This document shows positions 43,859 through 51,807 of a stretch of DNA of 64,000 bases, one piece after another; positions within the stretch are counted from its first letter, which is position 1; every line of letters begins with the position of its first letter. The stretch covers positions 1 through 64,000 of the forward strand of contig JAJFJB010000031.1 of the NCBI GenBank assembly GCA_021774435.1, in the 5' to 3' direction. The notes beneath the pieces were generated by a model that ran no database searches, was not told the DNA's origin, and was given only the letters and a program-made list of their open reading frames with translations. The stretch is from Alphaproteobacteria bacterium. Lineage in GTDB: Bacteria; Pseudomonadota; Alphaproteobacteria; UBA8366; GCA-2717185. The position numbers and the translations under genes are program-made.

Positions 43859-44923
43859 TCAACTTAATGTCGATGGTTTGCGGGGACGAATGCGCCATTC
43901 GAAGCAATCATCGCCGTAATCCATGCGCTGCAGGACCTCAAGAACGAGGAAACGGTTATGAGCCATCAGCGCGCCTTGCCACAATCCATTCCAGCTATCG
44001 AAGGCGCTGTCCGGGATATTGGCGTGGCCGCGCATGACGCGCCAGCCATATTGCCGGACATGGGTGGCATCGTCCTTGCGTTCGACTTCGACGCGGTCGT
44101 CTTGCGCTGTTGCCATCGCCGCGAGATAGGTGCCGAACACGGCGGCATCATCGCCGGAAATGCCGAGTGTTTCGGCGGTTTTCTCGTAATATTGCATGCC
44201 GATAAGCAGTCCGGTGACATTCCCGAAATGGGTCGCTTCCGCCGGACCGAACAGGGCCGCCGACTCGCTGAGCAACGCGCGGGTGAAATTCATCGAGTAA
44301 TTCCGGTTGGCTTTCTGAAGCCGTTCCGGTGGCCAGACGCTCGCGTCGAAGGTCGGCGCGGCGTCGGGGTTGAAAGGCGGCGGTTGCTCGCCCGGCGAGA
44401 AGCGTAGCCGCTCTTCCGGTCCCAGATCGTGATCATATTCGTAGAAATAGCCGGCCAGGCCGTGCTGTCCGTCCATGGTCTGTGCTGTGCAAACGAAACC
44501 GAGTCGCGGATTTCCGAGCGACACACCATTGTGCCCATACCAGCCTCGCAGCAAGCCGCGCGACACTTCGCTGGGAATGGCGCAAATGGCGGTGCCGTCA
44601 TAGATCCAGCGCGGCGGAACAAAGCGGACCCAGGCCTTGCGGTCCGATTCATACATATATTGAACCTTCACGCCGGCGACGCTGTTCGACAGATAATGAT
44701 ACTGCGCCGCGGCGACAGCGTCAGGCAGGACGTCGAGTCCAAGTTTTTTGAGGCCGGGCAGAAACAGGTCTTCATGCTGGCGGCGAAAGACGCGGAACCA
44801 AAGATCTTCCGCGTGGCGCGTGCTGCCGCGCGTCACCGCGGTCATAATAAATCCCGTGACATAGGCATGGTAAAGCGTGGCAACGGCGTCGTAGCCGCGG
44901 GTGACATCATTTTCTTTGGTCAT
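43859..44923 (-). CDS. Conserved hypothetical protein (354 aa), divergent from sox operon
   Basis: Intact ORF, divergently transcribed; C-terminal half has a [17 protein letters not shown]...WRIRPR layout faintly like ATC hydrolase/V4R-type proteins, but not a firm match. Confidence 0.7.
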
Positions 44924-44989
44924 CGATTTCGCATTTCCTTGTTACGGGTCCAAGGATATAACGATCCTTCGTGTGGAGGTAAAAGCGCC

Positions 44990-46240
44990 TTGCAGAAATA
45001 TTCCATTTTTTCGCTCGCCCGGAACGCCCTGTCGCGCCATGAAAATTGGCGTGAGGCCTGGCGCAGCCCGGAACCCAAGCCGGAATATGACGTGGTTATC
45101 GTCGGCGGTGGCGGTCACGGCCTCGCTACGGCCTATTACCTTGCCAAGGAACACGGCCTCAAAAATATCGCCGTTGTCGAGAAAGGTTGGCTTGGCGGCG
45201 GCAATACCGGGCGCAACACGACGATCGTCCGCTCGAACTACCTCTGGGACGAAAGCGCGGGCCTCTATGAGCATTCCCTGAAGCTGTGGGAAGGCCTGTC
45301 TCAGACGCTTAATTTCAATGTCATGTTCAGCCAGCGCGGCGTATTGAACCTGGCGCACAATCTGCACGATCTGCGTGAGCTTTCGCGGCGGATTAACGCG
45401 AACCGGCTGAATGGCGTGGATTCCGAGATCCTGTCGACCGCCGAGGTCAAGGAATTCTGCCCGCTGATCGATTGTTCGCCCGATATCCGCTATCCAGTTC
45501 TAGGGGCCTCTTTACAAAGACGTGGTGGTGTTGCCCGGCACGATGCGGTGGCGTGGGGTTTCGCGCGGGCTGCGGATGCGCTTGGTGTCGATATCATCCA
45601 AAACTGTGAGGTGACGGGCATTCTCCGGAAGGAGGGACACGTCGAGGGCATCGAGACGACGCGGGGCGTGATCAAGGCCAAGAAGATCGGGATCGTGACG
45701 GCGGGGCATTCCAGCGTCCTGGCGGCGATGGCCGGTTTCCGGCTGCCGATCGAGAGCCACCCGTTGCAGGCGCTGGTCTCCGAGCCGGTAAAACCGATCC
45801 TGGACACGGTCGTCATGTCGAATGCCGTGCATGCCTATATCAGCCAATCGGACAAAGGCGAAATGGTCATCGGGGCGGGGATCGACAGTTACATTTCCTA
45901 CTCCCAGCGCGGCGGCTTCGATGTTGTTGAAGAAACGTTGCAGGCGGTCGTTGAACTGTTCCCGATGCTCAGCCGGCTCAGGATGCTGCGTCAGTGGGGT
46001 GGGATCGTCGATGTCTGTCCCGACGCAAGCCCGATTATCGGCAGGACGCCCGTTGAGGGCCTCTTCATAAATTGCGGCTGGGGTACGGGCGGTTTCAAGG
46101 CGACGCCCGGCTCCGGGAATGTCTTTGCGCATACCATTGCGAAGGGCGAGCCGCACCCGCTGAACGCGCCGTTCTCACTCGACCGGTTTTCGACGGGCGC
46201 GCTCGTCGATGAACATGGTGCCGCGGCCGTGGCACATTAG
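44990..46240 (+). CDS. soxB: Sarcosine oxidase beta subunit
   Basis: [56 protein letters not shown] start at 44990 after GTGGAGGT; first gene of soxBDAG. Confidence 0.95.
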
Positions 46241-46255
46241 GGAAGGGAGATAACG

Positions 46256-46546
46256 ATGCTGCGTATTCCTTGTCCCTGGTGCGGCGAGCGGGACGTTCAC
46301 GAGTTCCATTGCGGCGGTGAGGCCCATATTGCCCGCCCGTCCGGCGCGGACACGATCGACGATGACGCGTGGGCGGATTACCTGTTTATGCGGCTAAATC
46401 CAAAAGGGCGGTATCATGAACGCTGGAGCCATGCGCATGGCTGCCGGCGTTGGTTTCATATCGTCCGGGATACCGATAGCGATCAGATATTGGCTGTTTA
46501 TCTAATGGATGAAGCGCCGCCCGACCTGCCGGGTCGTCAATCGTGA
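46256..46546 (+). CDS. soxD: Sarcosine oxidase delta subunit
   Basis: MLRIPCPWCGERDVHEFHCGGEAHIARP, WADYLFMRLNPKGRYHERWSHAHGCRRWFHIVRDT. Confidence 0.96.
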   Translation: MLRIPCPWCGERDVHEFHCGGEAHIARPSGADTIDDDAWADYLFMRLNPKGRYHERWSHAHGCRRWFHIVRDTDSDQILAVYLMDEAPPDLPGRQS

Positions 46547-49500
46547 AGCGGCAGCGCTTCCGGCTGCCCTCGGGAGGGCGGATCGATCGTGGTGCCGAGC
46601 GTAAGTTCAGCTTCAATGGCCGACGCTATTTTGGGTTTGAGGGCGATACGCTTGCGTCGGCGCTCCTCGCAAATGGTGTTCATTTCGTCGGCCGCAGTTT
46701 CAAGTATCACCGCCCGCGCGGCATTTTTGGTGGTGGAACGGAGGAGCCGAATGCCCTCGTGCAGCTCGGTAAAGGAGGCCGCACGGACCCGAACATGCGG
46801 GCGACCACCGTGGAACTGTTCGAAGGACTGCAGGCCAAAAGTCAGAATTGCTGGCCGGCCTTATGGTTTGATATCGCTAGCATAAACGACCGCCTGTCGG
46901 CACTTTTACCGGCAGGTTTCTATTACAAAACATTCATGGGGCCGGCACGGTTCTGGAGGTTCTACGAAAAATTCATCCGCAAAGCGGCCGGGCTGGGACG
47001 CGCGCCGGCAGAACGCGATCCGGACCGATACGAACAGCGATACGCGCATTGCGATGTCCTGGTTGTTGGCGCGGGGCCGGCGGGGCTTGCCGCCGCGCAT
47101 GCCGCCGGGACGACCGGTGCCCGCGTTATTATTGTCGACGAACAGCCCGAATTCGGCGGCGCGTTGTTGAGCGAGAATGGCCGTCACACGCAAATCGCGA
47201 AAGAAAATCCGGCTAGCTGGCTCAAGACGATGACGGTTGAACTCGCCGGTATGCCGGATGTGACGGTGCTGCCGCGCACGACGGCCTTCGGCAGTTATGC
47301 GCATAACTTCGTGGGATTGATCGAGCGAGTCGCCGATCATTTGCCGCCGGAAACGGCGGGAGGCAATGTTCGTCAACGGGTCTGGAAAGTGCGCGCCAAG
47401 GAAATTGTGCTCGCAACGGGCAGCCTGGAGCGCCCGCTGGTGTTCGCCGGGAATGACCGGCCCGGTATCATGCTTGCGGGTGCAGCGCGCGGGTTTGTCA
47501 ATCAATATGGGGTGAGTCCTGGCTCCCAGGCAGTCGTTTTCACCAATAATGATAGCGCCTACGCCGCCGCATTGGACCTGAATGAAGCAGGAATCGCGGT
47601 CGAGGCGGTTATCGATCTGCGTACCGAAGTGGAAGGCGAATTGCCGCGTCGCGCGCGGGAGGCGGGCATCCCCGTTCTGCAAGGCTATACGGTTGTCGCA
47701 ACGTCCGGACGGCATCGGGTAAAAAACGTCACCGTCATGCGCATGAACGATGCCGGTAACGGGGTTTCGGGTTCTGCCCGCACGCTGGCATGTGACTGTG
47801 TGGCGATGTCGGGGGGATGGAACCCCGCGGTGCATTTGTTCTCGCAGGCGCGAGGCAAACTGAATTTCGAGCCCGAGCGGGGGATTTTCCTGCCGGGCGA
47901 TCCAATTCGGGCGACGCGCTCGGTCGGGGCCTGCAATGGGGCCTTCGCTCTTGCTTCATGCCTCAGTGAAGGCGCAGAAGCCGGTCTGGCCGCGGCGCGC
48001 GCGGCGGGGTTTGAAGGTGCTTCGATGCCGGTACCGGCGGTGTCCGAAACCAAGGGTACCCCGCAAGTGCCTTTTTGGCGGGCGCCGACCGACCGCAAAG
48101 GCGGGCGCATGTTTGTCGATTTCCAGAACGATGTGACGACAAAGGATCTGGATCTGGCGGTCCGTGAAGGCTACCGCTCGATCGAACATGTCAAACGCTA
48201 CTCGACGACCGGCATGGGCACGGATCAAGGCAAGACAAGTAATATCAACGCACTGGCGATCGTCGCGAACAAACTGGGCGCGGACATTCCGGCCGTTGGC
48301 GTCACAACCTTTCGCGCACCCTATACGCCGGTAACTTTCGGGGCGATTACCGGTCGTCACGTTGGCGCGCTATTCGATCCTGTGCGCCGCACGCCGATGC
48401 ACGAATGGCATATCGAGCACGGTGCGAAATTCGAAGATGTCGGGCAATGGAAGCGTGCCTGGTATTACCCGCGAGACGGCGAGACGATGCGTCAAGCCGT
48501 CGACCGTGAGGTCAAGGCGGCGCGGGAGGGCGTCGGCATCCTCGATTATTCGACGCTGGGCAAGATCGACATAAAAGGGCCGGATGCCGCGGAATTCCTG
48601 AATCGCGTTTATACCAATGGCTGGGTCAAACTCGGTGTCGGTAAATGCCGGTATGGGGTGATGCTGAAAGACGACGGTATGGTGATGGACGATGGGGTCA
48701 CCCTGCGGCTCGCCGACGATCATTTCCTGATGACGACGACGACCGGCAACGCCTCGAGCGTCTTGTCATGGCTGGAAGAATGGCTGCAGACGGAATGGCC
48801 GGATCTGCGCGTGTATTGCACGTCCGTCACGGAACAGTTCGCGACCATCAGTATCTGCGGCCCCAACGCCCGTGTGCTACTTGCGGACGCCGCACCGGAC
48901 ATGAATCTGGCGGGCGACGCGTTTCCGCACATGTCCATGCGGGAAGGAAGGGTCGCCGGAGTGGACGCCCGTGTGCTTCGGGTCAGTTTTACCGGCGAAA
49001 CCGGATTTGAAATCAATGTTTCCGCCCGGTACGGCCGCGCGGTTTGGGATGCCTTGATCGACGCGGGTAATCCGCATGGCATTACACCCTATGGCACGGA
49101 AGCGATGCATGTGTTGCGGGCTGAAAAAGGCTTCTTTATCGCGGGCCAGGAATCTGACGGTACAGTAACCCCGATCGATCTCGGCATGAAATGGATCGTC
49201 AATTGGACCAAAGGGGACTTTATCGGGCGCCGTTCGCTGAATCGCTCGGATACGGTGCGAGACGGCCGCAAACAGTTGGTCGGGTTGCTTACCGCCAATC
49301 CCGAAACCGTACTTGAGGAAGGGGCGCAAATCGTTGCGCATGTGTCCGATGCCCCGCCAATGGCGATGATTGGCCATGTGACGTCAAGTTACTACAGTCC
49401 GAATGTCGGACGGTCCATTGCGCTTGCGGTGATCCGCGGCGGGCAGAACCGGATGGGAGAGACCTTGTACGCGCCGATGCCGGACGGGCCGATTGAGGTA

Positions 49501-49554
49501 ACCGTGACAGGCCCTGTCTTCTTCGACCCTGAGGGGGAACGTCTTAATGGGTGA
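46543..49554 (+). CDS. soxA: Sarcosine oxidase alpha subunit
   Basis: 1003 aa; N-terminal FNGRRYFGFEGDTLASALLANGV, FAD GxGxxG VLVVGAGPAGLAAAHAAG, C-terminal GCV_T-like folate-binding domains; ATGA overlap with soxD. Confidence 0.97.
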   Translation: MKRQRFRLPSGGRIDRGAERKFSFNGRRYFGFEGDTLASALLANGVHFVGRSFKYHRPRGIFGGGTEEPNALVQLGKGGRTDPNMRATTVELFEGLQAKSQNCWPALWFDIASINDRLSALLPAGFYYKTFMGPARFWRFYEKFIRKAAGLGRAPAERDPDRYEQRYAHCDVLVVGAGPAGLAAAHAAGTTGARVIIVDEQPEFGGALLSENGRHTQIAKENPASWLKTMTVELAGMPDVTVLPRTTAFGSYAHNFVGLIERVADHLPPETAGGNVRQRVWKVRAKEIVLATGSLERPLVFAGNDRPGIMLAGAARGFVNQYGVSPGSQAVVFTNNDSAYAAALDLNEAGIAVEAVIDLRTEVEGELPRRAREAGIPVLQGYTVVATSGRHRVKNVTVMRMNDAGNGVSGSARTLACDCVAMSGGWNPAVHLFSQARGKLNFEPERGIFLPGDPIRATRSVGACNGAFALASCLSEGAEAGLAAARAAGFEGASMPVPAVSETKGTPQVPFWRAPTDRKGGRMFVDFQNDVTTKDLDLAVREGYRSIEHVKRYSTTGMGTDQGKTSNINALAIVANKLGADIPAVGVTTFRAPYTPVTFGAITGRHVGALFDPVRRTPMHEWHIEHGAKFEDVGQWKRAWYYPRDGETMRQAVDREVKAAREGVGILDYSTLGKIDIKGPDAAEFLNRVYTNGWVKLGVGKCRYGVMLKDDGMVMDDGVTLRLADDHFLMTTTTGNASSVLSWLEEWLQTEWPDLRVYCTSVTEQFATISICGPNARVLLADAAPDMNLAGDAFPHMSMREGRVAGVDARVLRVSFTGETGFEINVSARYGRAVWDALIDAGNPHGITPYGTEAMHVLRAEKGFFIAGQESDGTVTPIDLGMKWIVNWTKGDFIGRRSLNRSDTVRDGRKQLVGLLTANPETVLEEGAQIVAHVSDAPPMAMIGHVTSSYYSPNVGRSIALAVIRGGQNRMGETLYAPMPDGPIEVTVTGPVFFDPEGERLNG

Positions 49555-50140
49555 TAGACCGGTATCCCGCAGCCCTCTCATGCATGTTGCCCCTGAAGGC
49601 CAAAGGTCAATCGATGGGGATAACGTTCGAATTGTGGAGCGGCCGGATATAGGCAAGGTCCTTTTACGGGGGGAGTCCAAGGAACCGGCATTCCTGGCCG
49701 CGGTTCGCGCGGCGCTTGAACTTGATTTGCCGCTCGCGCCGAATACGTCGAGCGAAACACCGCCCGTTTCCGCGCTGTGGCTCGCGCCGGATGAGTGGAT
49801 GCTGGTTTGCGCGCCCGGCAGTGAAACCGCTGTTGCGACCTCGCTGAAGGAAGCCTTGGTCCATCAGCATGCGAGCGTCGTGGATGTGAGCGATGCGCGA
49901 ACGGTGCTGCAGATCATCGGAACGGCTGCACGGGACACGCTTGCCAAGGGGTGTGCGTTGGACTTGCACCCACGCGCGTTCGCCTTTGGCGATGTTGCCC
50001 AGACGATGCTGGCGAAGGCGGCTGTAATTCTGCACCAGACCTCGGATGAAAATGACGAGGAAGGGCCAGTATTCGATATTTATGTCCCGCGATCCTTCTC
50101 GGACTATCTTTGGCGTTGGCTGACAGATTCCACCAATTAG
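49547..50140 (+). CDS. soxG: Sarcosine oxidase gamma subunit
   Basis: LWLAPDEWMLVCAPGSE, VVDVSDARTVLQIIGTAARDTLAKGCALDLHPRAF; overlaps soxA 3' end. Confidence 0.93.
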   Translation: MGDRPVSRSPLMHVAPEGQRSIDGDNVRIVERPDIGKVLLRGESKEPAFLAAVRAALELDLPLAPNTSSETPPVSALWLAPDEWMLVCAPGSETAVATSLKEALVHQHASVVDVSDARTVLQIIGTAARDTLAKGCALDLHPRAFAFGDVAQTMLAKAAVILHQTSDENDEEGPVFDIYVPRSFSDYLWRWLTDSTN

Positions 50141-50324
50141 AGAACCAACTATTCCCAGCCACTTCCATCGATAGCCGTTTCCGACTACGATTGCCGTTGA
50201 AAGAGCGCGCGGTTTCAGAGGCTTTTGTGGTCGTGCCTGATTTTCGAAACAGAATCTTTGACGTAATTTTCGGATTTGTTCTCAGATCCGGAGATCAGAA
50301 TATTCGCCTCACGGGGAGGGCATA

Positions 50325-50684
50325 ATGGCAAGTAGCATGTTCGAACGCTATGGCGGTTTCGCAAGCGTCAGCAAGATTGTCATGGCTTTCTATGACAAGG
50401 CGCTCGATTCCGATGTCATCGGGGATTTCTTTGAAGATATTGAAATGCCGAACCTAATCGACCATCAAACCAAGTTTATTGCGATGGCGATGGGGGGGCC
50501 GGCGAGCTACACAAACGAGATGTTGCGTCAAGTTCACGCCGATCTGGAAATCGATGTGGCTGCGTTCAACGAAGCCGTATCGCTTCTCGAGCAAACTCTG
50601 GAAGAATTTGAGCTGCAGGCGGAGGATATAGGTGTGATTATTGAGGATATCCGCAATCGCGCGCAATTTATCGTAAGTGCCTAA
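50325..50684 (+). CDS. Truncated hemoglobin (group I-like)
   Basis: MFERYGGFASVSKIVMAFYDKALD (B10-type Tyr), FFEDIEMPNLIDHQTKFIAMAMGGPASYT, EMLRQVHADLEID (proximal His). Confidence 0.9.
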   Translation: MASSMFERYGGFASVSKIVMAFYDKALDSDVIGDFFEDIEMPNLIDHQTKFIAMAMGGPASYTNEMLRQVHADLEIDVAAFNEAVSLLEQTLEEFELQAEDIGVIIEDIRNRAQFIVSA

Positions 50685-51807
50685 GACCGTGAACGAGCCA
50701 GACGAAAACAACGAAACGGGTAGTGCCGAGACGGCCGTGCCGGTGATGAAGCTGGATAAATTCAATCAGATGCTTCTTGAGTCGGTTGGGGTCGGACTTG
50801 CGATTATGGAATTGGAATCGCGCGAAGTACTTTTCGCCAATCGTCGGTTTATCGAATGGCTGCCTGGCACAACAAGTGTCGGCCGTCCCTTGGACGAGGC
50901 ATTTCCGGATATCGACTATAAGGTGCTTGAGGAAAAAGTAACCGAGGGGGAACTGTATACCTGCGAGGCGACGATTAAGGTGAAGCGGCGATCGGTTTCG
51001 CTGGCGCTGCAGTTCACAAAGCACACACACAACGACAAGCCGGTATTGATCCTCGAATGCCAAAATATTTCAAAGGTCAAGGAACTCGAATACATGATCG
51101 AATCCTATTCGACGATGGTCGAGAAACAGAACCGGACCTTGCAGCGTGAAAAGGAGCGGGTCGAGAAACTCCTTCTCAATATCATGCCGAAAACGGTTTA
51201 TGAGGAACTCAAGACATTTGGCGTGACGACGCCAACCAAATACGAGCATGCCTCTGTCTTGATGCTCGACTTTGTCGGCTTCACCGATATGGCGATTTCG
51301 CAGGACCCTGCCGGTGTCATCGCGGAGTTGAACGATATTTTCACCGCATTCGACCGCATCATGGAGCAATTCGGCTGCGAGCGGATCAAGACGGTGGGCG
51401 ACGCCTATATGGCGGTCTCTGGCATCCCGGAGGCGACGCCGGAGCACGCGCAGAACATCGCCAAAGTGGCTGTTCTAATTCTGAGGTACCTGGAACGTCG
51501 CAACGCGGCGCATACCAATCAGTGGAAATGCCGCATCGGGATCAATTCCGGTACGGTCATTGGGTCGATCGTCGGGGTGCAAAAATACGTCTACGACATC
51601 TTCGGTCCGGGCGTGAATTTGGCAGCGCGTCTGGAAGCTTTATCGGAGCCGATGGAAATTACGCTTTGCGAGGATATGCACGCGCTGATCGAGCATGATT
51701 TCCGTTTCGTCGACCGCGGCGAACACGCGGTTAAGGGCTTTGGCGAGAAGACGATTTATACATTGGACAGCGCCCATAGCATGGTGTCGATGTCCGCCGC
51801 GTTGTAA
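50677..51807 (+). CDS. PAS - coiled coil - class III adenylate/guanylate cyclase
   Basis: PAS-like N-terminus, ENQ-type signalling coiled coil EKERVEKLLLNIMPKTVYEEL, cyclase motifs LMLDFVGFTDM, RIKTVGDAYMAVSG, YVYDIFGPGVNLAARLE; start overlaps the globin gene by 8 bp. Confidence 0.93.
   Translation: MPKTVNEPDENNETGSAETAVPVMKLDKFNQMLLESVGVGLAIMELESREVLFANRRFIEWLPGTTSVGRPLDEAFPDIDYKVLEEKVTEGELYTCEATIKVKRRSVSLALQFTKHTHNDKPVLILECQNISKVKELEYMIESYSTMVEKQNRTLQREKERVEKLLLNIMPKTVYEELKTFGVTTPTKYEHASVLMLDFVGFTDMAISQDPAGVIAELNDIFTAFDRIMEQFGCERIKTVGDAYMAVSGIPEATPEHAQNIAKVAVLILRYLERRNAAHTNQWKCRIGINSGTVIGSIVGVQKYVYDIFGPGVNLAARLEALSEPMEITLCEDMHALIEHDFRFVDRGEHAVKGFGEKTIYTLDSAHSMVSMSAAL

Follow-up and report, generated by a model that had tools for sequence, protein, structure and literature searches.

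Does a truncated hemoglobin (trHb) whose gene runs into that of a class III cyclase serve the cyclase as a heme sensor subunit supplied in trans? The question is raised by a pair of genes on the forward strand of the window (the whole stretch of 64,000 nucleotides that was analysed), the features of which are as follows.

50313–50319, forward strand: Shine-Dalgarno-like ggggagg, read from the sequence, 5 nt before the trHb ATG.
50325–50684, forward strand: trHb gene, ATG start, 119 aa, assigned by its PF01152 match, its PDB relatives and conservation in 80 linked trHbs.
50677–50684, forward strand: overlap of 8 bp between the trHb end and the cyclase GTG start, read from the sequence, with the same overlap in two congeners.
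50677–51807, forward strand: PAS–coiled coil–class III cyclase gene, GTG start, 376 aa, assigned by PF00211, alignment to adenylate cyclase 9 (AC9) and catalytic residues.
50752–51066, forward strand: PAS domain, aa ~26–130, from AlphaFold secondary structure, Foldseek matches to PAS/LOV and a PAS_8 match in 8 of 23 relatives.
51070–51213, forward strand: coiled-coil signalling helix and cyclase transducer-like segment ending LLLNIMPKTVYEELK, aa 132–179, from the helix (132–169), an HNOBA-tail match in 23 of 23 relatives and near-invariant residues.
51235–51768, forward strand: class III cyclase catalytic domain, aa 187–364, from PF00211.

The first-pass annotation had proposed a 119-aa group I-like trHb retaining the B10 Tyr and proximal His, an 8-bp overlap with the next gene, and a product of that gene built as PAS, coiled coil and class III cyclase; the overlap is exact to the base, and both protein assignments are borne out by the domain matches, residues and models described below. 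The overlap makes translational coupling of the two genes probable. Upstream of the pair lies a heterotetrameric sarcosine oxidase gene set (44429–50140), which ends 185 bp before the trHb gene; the downstream neighbour is an acyl-CoA dehydrogenase-like gene on the opposite strand.

The globin matches PF01152 at 52.3 bits (cut-off, 21), and its closest solved structures in the PDB are group 1 truncated hemoglobins. Helix positions were assigned by aligning the globin with the Tetrahymena protein and with PDB entries that we take to be its mutants, which places Y23 at B10, F36 at CD1, L44 at E7, H47 at E10, Q48 at E11 and H71 at F8; the PF01152 match, the GG and GGP motifs, Tyr B10, Phe CD1 and His F8 together identify the protein as a TrHbN. 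Y23, F36, Q48, H71 and H47 are invariant in all 80 trHbs linked to a cyclase of this kind, and binding of heme b is predicted from the invariant proximal His. The His at E10 is found in 80/80 linked trHbs vs. 2/69 generic trHbs, where the residue is mostly Lys, in a comparison set dominated by few families. E10 residues act as the sixth heme ligand in other TrHbN proteins, a distal His in GlbN and a Lys in THB1 (PMC11904497; PMC7082302); for this reason hexacoordination through H47 is predicted here.

Conservation specific to the linked trHbs extends to, among others, Y9, F12, S16, D24, D28, D46, H47, T49, K50, A60, L67, I76, E83, D101 and R112. The window trHb shares its fold and heme-pocket residues with the group I trHbs GlbN, THB1 and HbN, but the linked proteins differ from these in conserving F12, D24, D28, D46, H47, T49, K50, A60, E83, D101 and R112, which are rare in generic trHbs, and in having a gene that is fixed beside a cyclase. 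A profile of the linked trHbs scores subfamily members at 116–194 bits and generic trHbs in the examined genomes at no more than 86; a damaged, half-length copy (in genome G070) scores 92 bits. By these sequence measures, the cyclase-linked trHbs are a separate, dedicated subfamily with a full heme pocket.

In the second protein, PF00211 matches aa 187–364 at 157 bits, a weak PAS_8 match covers aa 31–84, and AlphaFold predicts a PAS fold and, after it, a helix of 38 residues. The C-terminal tail alone of HNOBA (PF07701) matches aa 121–178 at 22.1 bits, below the cut-off of 23.4; this match falls at the end of the coil, where the motif EKERVEKLLLNIMPKTVYEELK occupies aa 158–179. The residues that define a class III adenylyl cyclase are all present: the two metal-binding Asp (D198 and D242, each in 78 of 78 aligned sequences), the transition-state Asn and Arg (N314 in 73 and R318 in 76) and the Lys/Asp pair (K238 in 74, with Arg in the other 4, and D307 in all 78). 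In class III cyclases, Lys/Asp is the adenine-selecting pair, and guanylyl cyclases have Glu/Cys instead. Lys238 and Asp307 align opposite EKIKT and YDIWG of AC9; the product predicted from these residues is therefore probably cAMP, and a guanylyl cyclase identity is rejected on the basis of the same residues.

The PAS domain does not itself offer a heme or flavin site of a familiar kind. Its best structural matches by Foldseek are LOV-type and generic PAS domains, and chains of soluble guanylyl cyclase (sGC) are absent from the best 50. Across the 78 cyclases, the PAS part contains no conserved His that would correspond to the heme ligand of FixL- or DosP-type PAS domains; the LOV motif with the photoactive Cys (NCRFLQ) reads NRRFIEW in the window PAS, and the position is not Cys in the aligned relatives. 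A heme-PAS or LOV-PAS sensor within the cyclase itself is thus ruled out by the absence of the conserved ligands, and any heme input would have to come from outside the PAS domain. Nor is an H-NOX partner encoded elsewhere, since H-NOX (PF07700) was found neither in the cyclase protein nor in its own genome; the same genome contains 30 PF00211 matches and 17 cNMP-binding matches, which makes cAMP targets plausible. The earlier comparison of the cyclase with sGC therefore stands in part. The order of PAS, coil and cyclase, the HNOBA-tail-like end of the coil and the high rank of sGC chains in the fold comparison with the complete trHb–PAS–coil–cyclase model are sGC-like; the substrate residues (for ATP, not GTP) and the type of PAS are not, so that the likeness is one of domain order and transducer.

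The first-pass annotation had also held that its proposal would fall if the gene pair were confined to the source strain; the pair is in fact nearly obligate over many families. A first survey of 99 genomes (own genome and relatives) found a strong cyclase match (E below 1e-100) in 7, namely its own and six others (two congeners, one other genus of the family and three members of other families), and all 7 have a trHb gene directly upstream. A wide scan with a cyclase alignment as query, covering one genome per species for 84,980 species, yielded 172 relatives, the best 80 of which were analysed; by the trHb profile, 79 of these 80 loci have a trHb directly upstream on the same strand, and at the 80th (L110) the cyclase match begins at base 187 of the contig and is thus cut by the contig end. 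Start-to-stop distances between the trHb and cyclase genes group around −11, −4 and 0 to +4 bp; a few more strongly negative values reflect choices of start codon, one frameshifted gene (L085) and one fusion (L070). In an even sample of the class (289 genomes), the cyclase occurs in 15 genomes and the pair in 15/15, and a linked-type trHb occurs without the cyclase in 2 others, G315 and G082; none of 48 generic trHb loci (some redundant) has the linked cyclase alongside in the stretch examined. Hosts include Ruegeria, Sneathiella, Hoeflea, Nitratireductor, Rhodospirillaceae, Geminicoccaceae and Desertibaculum, as well as metagenome-assembled genomes (MAGs) labelled Gammaproteobacteria, Chloroflexota and Nitrospinae, three cases in which binning errors are possible. 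The pair is also carried by plasmid pLA3 of Novosphingobium pentaromativorans US6-1, where its genes are annotated as group 1 truncated hemoglobin and adenylate/guanylate cyclase domain-containing protein. The immediate flanking genes vary between families, so the pair appears to move, and to be kept, as a unit. A chance neighbourhood is ruled out by the genome-wide and class-wide co-occurrence.

A few loci depart from the two-gene arrangement. In the Nitrospinae MAG (L070), trHb, PAS-coil and cyclase are fused in one open frame of 442 aa, a single case on a MAG contig. In G315, the trHb gene overlaps (ATGA) an ORF of 146 aa whose alignment to the PAS-coil is weak (16% identity, with no Pfam match), and there is no cyclase. 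Both genes of the pair have decayed in G070. In G082, a trHb of the linked subfamily (44% identical) stands without a cyclase, with genes for a Rieske-type ring-hydroxylating oxygenase and an acyl-CoA dehydrogenase-like protein downstream; this orphan beside a Rieske oxygenase indicates that the trHb can have another use. A mirror-tree comparison of trHb and cyclase gave a Mantel r of 0.92, to which little weight is given because shared descent alone raises r.

A joint function of trHb and cyclase is thus strongly supported by genomics, and recurrence of the pair in scores of species from many families makes the trHb a probable separate heme sensor subunit of the cyclase. The reading that we regard as likely is that the trHb and the PAS-coil-adenylyl cyclase form one sensory unit, in which the trHb is a dissociable, dedicated heme subunit; a detachable subunit received by the PAS-coil is suggested by the strictness of the pairing, by the fusion, by G315 with its trHb and PAS-like coil, by the absence of a heme ligand from the PAS domain and by the trHb's own set of conserved residues. 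Ferrous heme would be held by H71 (F8) and, in the ligand-free state, probably also by H47 (E10). Binding of O2, NO or CO, or a change in the redox state of the iron, would displace H47 and move the E helix, which carries the subfamily-specific D46, H47, T49 and K50; the shift would be read by the PAS domain and pass through the 38-residue coiled coil to realign the cyclase homodimer and change cAMP output. We infer the binding of the trHb to the PAS-coil, the identity of the ligand, the sign of regulation and cAMP as the product. An AlphaFold model of a read-through trHb–cyclase chain (the in-frame pair of L055 with other read-through rows, unpaired rows and the L070 fusion) folds every domain, with a mean pLDDT of 86, but the pTM of 0.48 gives no confidence in their arrangement, and for this reason no interface between trHb and PAS-coil is claimed.

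The strongest competitor, although unlikely, is that the trHb is a NO dioxygenase or a scavenger of peroxide or reactive oxygen species co-expressed with the cyclase; the PAS domain would then sense something else, and the trHb would protect the cell or the cyclase, or belong to the response. The distal pocket, with Tyr B10 and Gln E11, closely resembles a type associated with high O2 affinity suited to enzymatic use (PMC11904497). Such a pocket would serve an enzyme or a sensor equally well. Two FAD oxidoreductases that are possible reductases are encoded just upstream of the pair on pLA3, and the orphan in G082 shows the trHb retained without a cyclase. However, a protein with a general scavenging role would have no need to sit so strictly, 1:1, beside one family of cyclases in so many bacterial families, and the generic trHbs of the same genomes show no such linkage. 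The subfamily-specific conservation beyond the core heme residues, the L070 fusion and the PAS-like coil partner in G315 also count against a scavenger.

Less probable again, and doubtful, is that the trHb supplies the PAS domain with a product (an oxidised ligand or redox centre, heme or an electron), with the PAS domain and its near-conserved Cys128 as the true switch. Hexacoordination by an endogenous E10 residue is said to promote electron transfer (PMC11904497), and 69 of 78 cyclases retain Cys128; yet the pair is still present where the remaining 9 lack this residue, and no heme- or flavin-ligating residue is conserved in the PAS domain. Adjacent genes are commonly transcribed together without any contact between their products, but an operon of neighbours with no molecular link, in which the overlap reflects compact genomes only, is very improbable here given the retention of the pair over many families with changing flanks, the class-wide co-occurrence, the fusion and the shared decay.

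As a proposed heme subunit encoded apart from its enzyme, the trHb has counterparts among known systems. Bacterial stand-alone H-NOX proteins are encoded next to a histidine kinase or a diguanylate cyclase, likewise a small separate heme protein beside an enzyme that it is thought to regulate in trans; the pair described here differs in combining a group I truncated globin with a PAS-class III cyclase partner, in a genome without H-NOX. Association of H-NOX with kinase or MCP has been described (PMC9814294). Globin-coupled sensors (globin-GGDEF, globin-MCP and globin-kinase proteins) likewise join a globin input to a signalling output, but their 3/3 globins are fused in cis; the window pair contains no protoglobin-type 3/3 sensor globin in N-terminal fusion, and has instead a 2/2 TrHbN in trans (except for the L070 fusion, still a TrHbN) and a cyclic nucleotide cyclase output. 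Globin heme is likewise linked to a class III adenylyl cyclase in HemAC-Lm of Leishmania, a globin-containing adenylate cyclase named as an O2 sensor (PMC12755159); that protein is eukaryotic and a single chain with its globin in cis, whereas the bacterial pair is split and includes a PAS domain. sGC (H-NOX, H-NOXA PAS, coiled coil and cyclase) has the same PAS-coil-cyclase order and a similar coil end, from which the pair departs by having no H-NOX, adenylyl-type residues, a LOV-like or generic PAS and an expected homodimer.

Searches of the open-access literature found no paper that describes a pairing of trHb and cyclase, and the trHb survey of Bustamante 2016 does not mention an operon or fusion. 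This agrees with the original suggestion that a trHb supplied in trans to a PAS-cyclase is not a standard described system, and the pair is a real, widespread and apparently undescribed variant of heme-regulated cyclases, its novelty being provisional. If the trHb subfamily is tied 1:1 to the cyclase, this branch of globins would have a signalling role; to our knowledge, most bacterial trHbs have no assigned role beyond proposed gas chemistry. The pairing would also give a gas or redox input to class III cyclases; these genomes encode many such enzymes, for most of which no signal is known. Because the pair consists of two small soluble proteins and is carried by harmless, culturable marine bacteria (Ruegeria, Sneathiella and Hoeflea), it is directly testable.

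The wider neighbourhood points to further connections. A hybrid PAS-histidine kinase resembling that of Ruegeria meonggei is encoded within the stretch examined at 33 of the 80 loci, as well as on pLA3; at 28 of these 33, and again on pLA3, its neighbour is an OmpR-type response regulator. The kinase occurs in at least three arrangements: upstream on the opposite strand, mostly behind an alpha/beta hydrolase and a methyltransferase; collinear and directly upstream (L123); and collinear downstream (L127, pLA3). L079 and the related L077–L122, L123, L127, L129 and L185 have the kinase and the OmpR-type regulator, and most of them the hydrolase and methyltransferase. The window has no local hybrid kinase, and a partial homologue lies on another contig of its genome. 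This recurrence of kinase and regulator near the pair points to a wider regulatory circuit in some members of the lineage. On balance, we lean toward a widespread class of split heme sensors in which a trHb subfamily is the obligate, dissociable subunit of a PAS-adenylyl cyclase, converting O2, NO or redox signals to cAMP in Alphaproteobacteria and beyond, and, in some members of the lineage, is wired to a dedicated pair of hybrid histidine kinase and response regulator.

Other trHb loci were met in the same searches. In the genome of the window (contig C495, L002:712–1863), an open frame of 383 aa fuses CheW (106 bits) to a C-terminal group I trHb (Bac_globin, 64.6 bits), and long open frames of 387–495 aa around a trHb likewise occur in five related genomes (L030, L031, L034, L039 and L040), which suggests that the CheW-trHb fusion is conserved; a heme-sensing chemotaxis coupling protein is possible. 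Tandem or triple group I trHb genes ~150 bp apart are found at L160–L184, mostly in family f175 of the same phylum and in many small genomes, and two trHb domains lie within one open frame in G505 and G426. Contig C121 of the window's own genome (L004) encodes another trHb, of 154 aa, whose gene immediately follows, on the same strand, a flavin monooxygenase-like gene (434 aa).
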